Shown here: positions 19,429 through 23,648 of the stretch, piece after piece
Position numbering within the stretch: position 1 is the first letter of the stretch
Layout: the number at the start of each line of letters is the position of its first letter
Source of the DNA: Nitrospinota bacterium
Lineage (GTDB): Bacteria > JADFOP01
Direction: 5' to 3'
NCBI GenBank assembly: GCA_022562795.1
Contig: JADFOP010000014.1
Location: 1-47,424, forward strand
DNA length: 47,424 bases
Translations under genes and position numbers: made by a program
The notes under the pieces: model-generated
What the model saw: the letters and a program-made list of their open reading frames with translations, nothing else
Told to the model about the DNA's origin: nothing
Databases searched by the model: none

Positions 19429-21264
19429 ATGTTTCGGGTGGCTCATAGGGCAGCCGGTTTCATGAGGGTCCTATACATCGGCCTAGCCCTCGGCGTCATG
19501 CTCCTCGTGGGCGGAGTGTTTGGAGCGTACGTAGTCGAGAGCCAGGAGTTGCCACAAGAGCGGAGGAAGTTATCCATCGGCGGAGCTTTAGTGGACGCCT
19601 TGGCGGACTTTCAACGCATTGGCGGCGAGGTGGACGAGGTCACCCCCGAAGAACTAGGCGAAAAGGGTCCGAAGACCGTCGGCCAGTTGAACGGACGCTC
19701 CATCTTCGCCGTCCCCTCGGGTGAGCCGGGCAAGATTGTCGGCATCGTGTCAGCCGACGGGGGGGCCATCAAGGCTAGTATTACCCGCAAAGGCTTCCTT
19801 CAGCTCCAGCCGGCATCGGCTGGGTTCCGTACAAGGAACATCGAGCTCTTCAAGGCGCTCTACCCCGACAAGGAGGCTCCCGCCTACACTCAAGAGATCC
19901 TCCTTGAATATATTGACGACAGTGGGGCGCGCCTGATGCTGGGTGGCGCAGAGGCCGATAAGACCACCGCCTTTCTATTCAAGAAGGACCCCGAAACAGG
20001 AGAGATTATCTTCAAGATGAGGCGCGACATCCTAAAAGAGAAGAGCACCGGGGATTACTTGGCCCCCGACGTTTCATCGACATTTCCTACAACGGTGAAG
20101 ATATGCGACGTGCGGCGGGCCAACTGTGAGACCCGGATCATTATTAAGAAGCCGGGCGACGAAATCCGCCTTGACCCGCTCACTCGACATATGAATATCG
20201 TCTTCAACAAAGACAATCTCTCATATAAACAAAAGTTCCGCTCATCCCAGCGGTTGAGCTGGGCCTGCGAGTATCAGGGCCGTGGGTTCTTCATCACCTA
20301 CCGCGAGGGTTCTCTGGGCGGATTCCGGAAACCCGGCCGCAACGATACCGGGACCCTCTCCTGCATCAATGGAGTGCTTAGGTGCGAGAGGTCCGCACCC
20401 GGCCAGAAGTGCAACTTTGACTTTCGCGATTACCTGGCGAAGCCAGCCGAGGCCGCTCTCTTCGGGCTCGATTGGCTCTTGGCGCGCAAAGACCCCCACA
20501 CCCATTACTTCACCCTCGCCCCCGACCCCTCGATCGAGCGGCACATCCGTATCGGGAATCTGGAAAATCTGGATACCATCCACGAGGTCGCACTCCGGGA
20601 CGGGGTGATCGACCACGCCAGCGATATTGTGGACCCCGCCGATGGTGGGGCAATGGACTCCTGGGTCACCGAACGGCTGCAAAAGGCCCTTTGCGCCAAG
20701 CCTTCGGCGGCCTGCACCGGAACCCCTGAGTTTAAGATTCTGGAGGTCACGTCGGTCAATGACGGGCTATTCTTCATCGACGAGCGAACCGGCACCAAGC
20801 TCAAGAATGTAGAGCGGGCACGGCTATACAGCCTCCGGCAACCTTACGGCTGGGGCAAGCAGGGTGATTTCATCGCCACCCTCATTACAAACAAAAAGGG
20901 AGCCGCAGAGGTGGCGGCCCTCGAGCGGCTGAACGAAGAGCTCGAAGCCCCCCTCTTCGAGGATAAGGTGGAAGATGAGCCCTCCGACCCCGTCAAGGCC
21001 ATGTTGAAAGGACTGGAGGATGAGGCAAAGTGGGAGACCCGCCGGGTGAAGCTGGCCGCGGAGACCCACGCCCTGGTCATATTCCCCACGACCCACGTGG
21101 AAGATATGAAAGGGTACTTTGGTTTTCCGGTGAAACAGCCACCACCCGTGCCGGCTCATATTCTTTCTCTAAATCAGGACGAGCGAGCGTCCGCTGCACG
21201 TCATCAATCTCCTTCAAGGAGCCCCCGAAGGCCCCTACCTCCTGTCCCGCCGCCTAGCTACTAG
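19429..21264 (+). CDS. Uncharacterised membrane-anchored or exported protein
   Basis: 611 aa, not recognised. One N-terminal hydrophobic segment (about 12-36) could be a signal anchor, leaving the rest outside the cytoplasm. The body is mixed alpha/beta with several Cys (near 225-235, 288, 330-345) that could form disulfides, and repeats of D-P-E-T-G-type loops. The last 25 residues are low-complexity Ser/Arg/Pro (SPSRSPRRPLPPVPPPSY). GGGAGGAGG lies 8-9 nt before the ATG, so expression should be good. The nearest upstream element is the 20-bp palindrome at 19384. It is monocistronic between comM (divergent) and ispH. Confidence 0.75.
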   Translation: MFRVAHRAAGFMRVLYIGLALGVMLLVGGVFGAYVVESQELPQERRKLSIGGALVDALADFQRIGGEVDEVTPEELGEKGPKTVGQLNGRSIFAVPSGEPGKIVGIVSADGGAIKASITRKGFLQLQPASAGFRTRNIELFKALYPDKEAPAYTQEILLEYIDDSGARLMLGGAEADKTTAFLFKKDPETGEIIFKMRRDILKEKSTGDYLAPDVSSTFPTTVKICDVRRANCETRIIIKKPGDEIRLDPLTRHMNIVFNKDNLSYKQKFRSSQRLSWACEYQGRGFFITYREGSLGGFRKPGRNDTGTLSCINGVLRCERSAPGQKCNFDFRDYLAKPAEAALFGLDWLLARKDPHTHYFTLAPDPSIERHIRIGNLENLDTIHEVALRDGVIDHASDIVDPADGGAMDSWVTERLQKALCAKPSAACTGTPEFKILEVTSVNDGLFFIDERTGTKLKNVERARLYSLRQPYGWGKQGDFIATLITNKKGAAEVAALERLNEELEAPLFEDKVEDEPSDPVKAMLKGLEDEAKWETRRVKLAAETHALVIFPTTHVEDMKGYFGFPVKQPPPVPAHILSLNQDERASAARHQSPSRSPRRPLPPVPPPSY

Positions 21265-22530: not shown

Positions 22531-23169
22531 TTGAGGGGCCGTAAGAATCTAGGCGTTCGGCTCGCCTTCGCTATAACCATCGCGGCCGTGACCTTCGGCG
22601 GCGGTCTCGGGCTGAAGGGACTCTTTGGACCCCGACCCGTTGTCATCCTGGGGGACAATCCAATCTTGGGAGAGGTCACAGCACCAATCACGATCTACGA
22701 GTTCAGCGACTATGGCTGACCCCACTGCCGAGAGGTGCAGGGTCCGCTGCATCAGCTATTGACTAAGTACTCGGGCCGGGTGAAGCTTGTCTACATCAAT
22801 GCGCCACTCTCGCCCCGCTCCACACGGGCGTCGGAGATTGCCGAATGTGCCTACCTGCAGGGTAAGTTCTGGGAGTACAACGACCTCGTGTTTGAAAACC
22901 AACCCGTCTGGGGGCCGGCCGAGGACTGGCGGGAGCGGCTGTTCTCCTACGGCAAGGAGGTCGGCCTCGACATGGCCGCCCTTGGAGATTGCCTAGAGAA
23001 GGGTATCGCCCGGCGAGCGCTAACGGCTGATATCCGCGAAATGGAGGACCAGGCGATCATGTTCACCCCCACAATCATCATGGACGACGGGCGGCGTTTC
23101 GTAGGCTCCGACCTGGAGGAGCTTCAATCGGCCCTGGAAGGGGCCCTGAGCCTGAGGAGCGGCCGGTAG
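22531..23169 (+). CDS. Selenocysteine-containing DsbA-like thiol oxidoreductase (Sec63-Pro-His-Cys)
   Basis: 213 codons with an in-frame TGA at 22717-22719; 212 residues. The N-terminal anchor or signal (about 9-30) is followed by the DsbA/thioredoxin-fold opening LGEVTAPITIYEFSDYG and then U63-P-H-C66, where relatives have C-P-x-C. Downstream, the helical insert (ECAYLQGKFWEYNDLVF) and the cis-Pro strand (MFTPTIIMDDGRRF) are intact, so this is not a decayed gene. The bSECIS hairpin at 22734-22753 lies at the right distance. Start: TTG with GGAGGGG 7 nt upstream; no ATG is available after an in-frame TAA. The likely role is periplasmic thiol-disulfide exchange. The MauE-like gene begins in its stop codon. 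Confidence 0.88.
22734..22753 (+). promoter_or_regulatory. bSECIS element of the DsbA-like selenoprotein
   Basis: Stem GGTGCAG (22734-22740) with CTGCATC (22747-22753), seven pairs including one G-T wobble, and loop GGTCCG. The loop starts 22 nt after the UGA, within the 16-37 nt window used for bacterial SECIS, and begins with G-G-U as in fdhF. Confidence 0.75.
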
Positions 23170-23648
23170 TGGCTGCCACGAAGAGCGGGGCGTGGAGCTC
23201 CCCGGGCACAGTGGCGGCAGCCCGGCTCCTGGTGGGGGGGGTATTTCTTGTCGCAGGGGTCGGAAAGCTATTGGAGCCTGCAGGGGCGTTTGCCCAGATC
23301 TTGGGGGCTTACCGTCTCGTGCCCGCCGAGGCTGTCCCGCTCATCGCGACATGGCTCCCGTGGGGGGAACTCGTCCTAGGCATCTACCTGATTGTGGGTT
23401 TCGAGACCCGTTGGGCCGGCGCTGCTGCGGCCGTCTGCTTCGCGGTTTTCTCCGCCGCCATCGCCACAAACTTGATTCTCGGCGCACCCCTGGAAGATTG
23501 CGGCTGCTTCGGTACCCTGCTCAAACGTGAGGGGGCCACCATCACGCTAGTCGGCGACCTCGTTCTCGGGGGCGTGAGCCTCTGGCTGGTGCGCCACCCG
23601 GTGAGCCGGACAAGCCTAGACGGATGGCTGGAGGCCAGGGGCTGGTAG
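23169..23648 (+). CDS. MauE/DoxX-like membrane protein, partner of the Sec-DsbA
   Basis: 159-aa integral membrane protein with four predicted helices. The family hallmark DCGCFG (Cys111, Cys113) sits at the end of helix 3. MauE proteins were first known from methylamine dehydrogenase maturation, where disulfide formation is needed, and relatives are often linked to thioredoxin-fold proteins. The GTG start shares one base with the selenoprotein's TAG, so the two are translationally coupled. Inference: the Cys pair passes electrons between the quinone pool and the Sec-x-x-Cys centre. Confidence 0.8.
   Translation: MAATKSGAWSSPGTVAAARLLVGGVFLVAGVGKLLEPAGAFAQILGAYRLVPAEAVPLIATWLPWGELVLGIYLIVGFETRWAGAAAAVCFAVFSAAIATNLILGAPLEDCGCFGTLLKREGATITLVGDLVLGGVSLWLVRHPVSRTSLDGWLEARGW

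Follow-up and report, generated by a model that had tools for sequence, protein, structure and literature searches.

Selenocysteine-containing (Sec) proteins of the DsbA-like and DsbG-like types, with their UXXC motif, were described from the Sargasso Sea in 2005 (PMC1088965) and from the GOS metagenomes in 2008 (PMC2398784). The passages that present them in these two surveys report widespread cysteine homologs and assign the DsbG-like form to COG1651, while current reviews list a DsbG-like protein with a UxxC motif as Thioredoxin_4 / NF041057. Among solved structures, the thioredoxin-like oxidoreductase 3gyk and BdbD of Bacillus subtilis (3eu3) are the reference points of interest here. The gene analysed in this work lies in a stretch of 47,424 nucleotides (hereafter the window), contig JADFOP010000014.1 of a Nitrospinota bacterium (assembly GCA_022562795.1), and it shares with the metagenomic proteins, as far as their description allows the likeness to be drawn, both the UXXC motif and the existence of cysteine homologs. 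The initial annotation of the window had pointed to metagenomic precedents, and rightly so; in the passages concerned, nothing ties the Sargasso Sea and GOS proteins to the lineage of the window (PMC1088965, PMC2398784). A literature search for Nitrospinae with selenoproteins found none. The kind of protein has thus been known since 2005, and the present gene adds a member in a little-studied, Nitrospinota-related lineage.

The gene occupies positions 22531 to 23169 of the forward strand. When TGA is translated as U, it encodes a protein of 212 residues with a single in-frame TGA, at codon 63 (22717..22719), in the motif EFSDYG-U-PHC, and it ends with TAG. Two observations favour the TTG at 22531 as its start: a GGAGGGG sequence lies a few bases upstream, and the ortholog from the same genus has a GTG where the TTG aligns. 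That one DsbA/thioredoxin-fold frame runs on both sides of the TGA, as first proposed, is confirmed by two domain matches that span it: Pfam Thioredoxin_4 over residues 43-203 (E 1.1e-25, 91.2 bits, for a curated cut-off of 23.2) and Pfam DSBA over residues 54-202 (36.6 bits, for a cut-off of 25.6). The features expected of these domains, a CxxC-type motif and a cis-proline, accompany the scores. The resolving cysteine, Cys66 (22726..22728), is invariant in an alignment of 14 sequences, and the cis-Pro segment, previously said to be intact, is indeed so, as FTPT at residues 178-181 (23062..23073), with T179 and P180 invariant in the same alignment. Gene callers that treat TGA solely as a stop would break this gene into two, and the 144-residue downstream piece that had been foreseen as a separate call, with a GTG start at 22735, is present in the list of open reading frames. 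A second pair of cysteines, C106 and C154 (22846-22848 and 22990-22992), is common to the paralogs described below and to three cysteine-containing relatives (L029-L031), and is missing from the aligned alphaproteobacterial relatives; it possibly forms a structural disulfide.

An AlphaFold model of the Sec protein (mean pLDDT 85, pTM 0.79) matches solved DsbA-like oxidoreductases, namely 3gyk, alpha-DsbA2 and BdbD. Of all solved structures, BdbD (3eu3) and 3gyk match best in sequence and rank among the best in fold, and both have a cysteine where the window protein has Sec. In the NCBIfam collection, the best and only match is NF041057, the Rcas_1661 family thioredoxin-like (seleno)lipoprotein (E 1.2e-20), which likewise combines a Thioredoxin_4 domain with Sec as the first residue of UxxC. 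The window protein nevertheless reaches 74.1 bits against the family cut-off of 190, and, with no cysteine between the TTG start and residue 63, it does not have the lipobox cysteine. Because of this low score and of the missing lipobox, it seems to represent a Sec branch of its own, related to NF041057. Where that family has its lipobox, the window protein begins with the sequence LAFAITIAAVTFGGGLGL, probably a membrane anchor, which would leave the catalytic domain facing the periplasm; it also differs in being followed by a MauE-like gene.

The identity of the residue at the TGA is best approached through its relatives. The ortholog in a second genome of the same genus, on a contig matching the public record JALLOF010000011.1 (Nitrospinae bacterium AH_259_B05_G02_I21, of the NCBI phylum Nitrospinota), shows 67-68% identity, has the same synteny and carries TGA at the same codon. 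Each of these two genomes also holds a paralog, 31-34% identical to the window protein, with TGA at this very position in the motif FSDYQ-U-PFC; the copy from the window's genome lies on contig C6 (15506-15952) and the other on contig C541 of the second genome. A scan of the contigs of the genomes yielded 25 other relatives, and the 13 that were compared at the TGA column, all from other phyla (Gemmatimonadota, Myxococcota and Alphaproteobacteria), have a cysteine there without exception (13/13). The UGA thus stands in frame at a redox-active position that is occupied by cysteine in homologs, which agrees with the early placement of the TGA at the nucleophilic cysteine. A sense codon other than Cys or Sec at this site in close relatives, named at the outset as an observation that would speak against selenocysteine, was not seen: all those inspected have TGA or Cys. 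When the other TGA-interrupted frames of the window were scanned for a nearby cysteine and judged by eye, no second convincing case emerged.

The paralog deserves some attention of its own. Its best-conserved stretch comes directly after the TGA, with strong synonymous conservation over 15 codons; just after the TGA, synonymous codons are identical in 13/14 cases, against 84/149 elsewhere (Fisher p 0.006). The copy on contig C6 is nearer to NF041057 (135 bits) and has a lipobox-like LSGC. Its N-terminus is charged and coiled-coil-like.

Downstream of the TGA in the window gene, the hairpin that had been noticed at the beginning, with its 7-bp stem and its GGTCCG loop, is present at 22734..22753 of the forward strand (GGTGCAG / GGTCCG / CTGCATC). 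The loop has 6 nt and its first base is at +22, leaving 21 nt between the UGA and the loop. We judged it by a published set of rules for bSECIS elements, which call for a loop of 3-9 nt with a G in the first two positions, a stem of 4-16 bp, a spacing of 16-37 nt and a minimum free energy (MFE) of at most -7.5 kcal/mol (PMC13188914). The hairpin agrees with this set throughout, including a loop G followed by G or U, and its folding energy of -9.4 kcal/mol is equalled by 3/200 dinucleotide shuffles; a stem as good appears in about 10% of the synonymous recodings of the gene. The ortholog from the same genus has the same five hairpin codons, GTG CAG GGT CCG CTG. Synonymous conservation downstream of the TGA, considered for this gene alone, is not significant (8/12 against 74/125). 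When a 48-nt stretch is folded, the window's copy favours a different pairing, and comparing the MFE of the 48 nt that follow the TGA with synonymous shuffles is uninformative for this gene. As a lone signal, the hairpin is weak to modest evidence for Sec insertion.

The machinery needed to read UGA as Sec was also sought. The window's genome has a tRNA-Sec gene (77.6 bits, anticodon TCA) at 1708-1797 of contig C37 (1501-1590 of locus L001), and a selD gene at 1-672 of contig C27 (L017), cut by the contig end. This selD also codes for a selenoprotein, its own in-frame TGA falling within GGG-U-ACK. No reading frame of the size of SelA or SelB lies within 1.5 kb on either side of the tRNA-Sec gene, SelA models find no match in the assembly (97.1% complete), and the SelB model retrieves there just GTPases below the cut-off. 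SelA and SelB are present in the relatives: selA and selB are adjacent, beside scpA (L057 5940-9271 and L065), in the genome of the same genus (contig C277) and in one of the same class (contig C123). In the window's genome, scpA (contig C34, L064) has other neighbours, with no selA alongside, and a search for the selA/selB region through miaB synteny did not locate it, the best match being a 43% relative on another contig. The initial annotation had accepted that absence of the Sec machinery would count against it; the expectation is borne out for tRNA-Sec and for a Sec-containing SelD, but not for SelA and SelB, which were not found in the genome's own assembly. We may then ask whether selA and selB were recently lost, leaving a former selenoprotein gene that is now read just to the TGA in this species. 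Their absence from a nearly complete assembly and a scpA neighbourhood unlike that of the other two genomes would fit with such a loss; against it, the genome has kept its tRNA-Sec, its Sec-dependent selD and two UGA genes that are intact, and the truncation of selD by a contig end shows that the assembly is not complete at that point. This makes a recent loss improbable, and since those same genes persist, we infer that the absence of SelA and SelB is an assembly gap.

Still less credit can be given to a broken gene, be it a pseudogene or a sequencing error, in which the TGA would be a chance nonsense mutation of a cysteine codon. TGT and TGC are indeed one base away from TGA, and the missing SelA and SelB could be invoked on the same side; yet both copies of the paralog have the same TGA, as does the separately sequenced ortholog, which is 68% identical, and the half of the gene that follows it has kept a pattern of substitution biased to third positions. 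Between the two orthologs, nucleotide differences at first, second and third codon positions number 11/8/27 before the TGA (the third accounting for 27/46) and 29/30/58 after it (58/117), and this excess at third positions on both sides means that both halves are under selection at the protein level. The early view that a chance nonsense mutation was unlikely is therefore strengthened, and we regard one as very improbable indeed. As for a TGA read as Trp, Gly or Cys through a general change of the code or suppression, nothing beyond the open frame speaks for it, and it may be set aside as extremely improbable, for TGA terminates 13/26 of the larger neighbouring reading frames in the window, which indicates that the genetic code has not changed, it falls exactly at an otherwise invariant cysteine, and a tRNA-Sec with a TCA anticodon is present. 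Third-position bias on both sides together with these stops thus argues for recoding, rather than for a broken gene or a changed code.

It is thus very probable that the stretch from 22531 to 23169 is a genuine bacterial selenoprotein gene, and the proposal that Sec replaces the first active-site cysteine of a DsbA-like protein was right in substance, with a conserved TGA, cysteine homologs, a hairpin and tRNA-Sec. We hold it highly likely that its product works as a thiol-disulfide oxidoreductase of the Thioredoxin_4 (DsbG/BdbD-like) group that is anchored in the membrane, faces the periplasm and has selenocysteine as its attacking residue. Sec63 would be inserted at UGA 22717 by SelB and tRNA-Sec by way of the hairpin 21 nt downstream, and the Sec63-Cys66 pair would exchange with the thiols or disulfides of substrates; its recycling would fall to a membrane protein, for which the MauE/DoxX-like product of the adjoining gene is the most likely choice. 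The sequence itself establishes the domain, the single UGA and its conservation, the cysteine homologs, a hairpin compatible with a SECIS and part of the Sec machinery, while the insertion of Sec, the membrane anchoring, the direction of the redox reaction and the partner are inferred from it.

This neighbour (23169..23648, forward strand; Pfam MauE, E 8.8e-22) has a conserved pair of cysteines in CGCFG, and its GTG start shares one base with the stop codon that closes the Sec gene. In the relative from the same genus (L028), the corresponding protein is 81% identical and stands at the same place, with CGCFG invariant, and the gene order, read there from translations, is common to both: ispH, the Sec dsbA gene, the mauE-like gene, ferritin, polyprenyl synthase and AMMECR1. 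Further upstream in the window, a frame of 611 residues (19429-21264) has no Pfam match; the relative has a frame of similar size in the corresponding location, upstream of its ispH (L028 766-2661). The nearest cysteine relatives of the catalytic domain are VKOR-DsbA pairs or fusions, VKOR being adjacent in L029, fused in L030 (according to Pfam) and fused in L031 (by eye), whereas the window gene has a MauE/DoxX-like neighbour instead. Models of VKOR and DsbB find no match in the three genomes of the phylum examined. Since it is adjacent and since no VKOR or DsbB was found, the MauE/DoxX-like protein is probably the strongest candidate for recycling the Sec enzyme. That the two would make up a complete periplasmic disulfide relay, replacing DsbA-DsbB or DsbA-VKOR, with the CGCFG cysteines exchanging with Sec63-Cys66, is a more tentative idea, which we consider rather unlikely as it stands; a literature search for MauE with DsbA returned nothing relevant among the papers listed.

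With the window gene and its paralog, two well-supported Sec DsbA-like genes are added to a sparsely sampled lineage, in which three genomes were examined. The pairing of the Sec gene with a MauE-like gene, in genomes where neither DsbB nor VKOR was detected, provides a testable case for a partnership between MauE-type and DsbA-type proteins.
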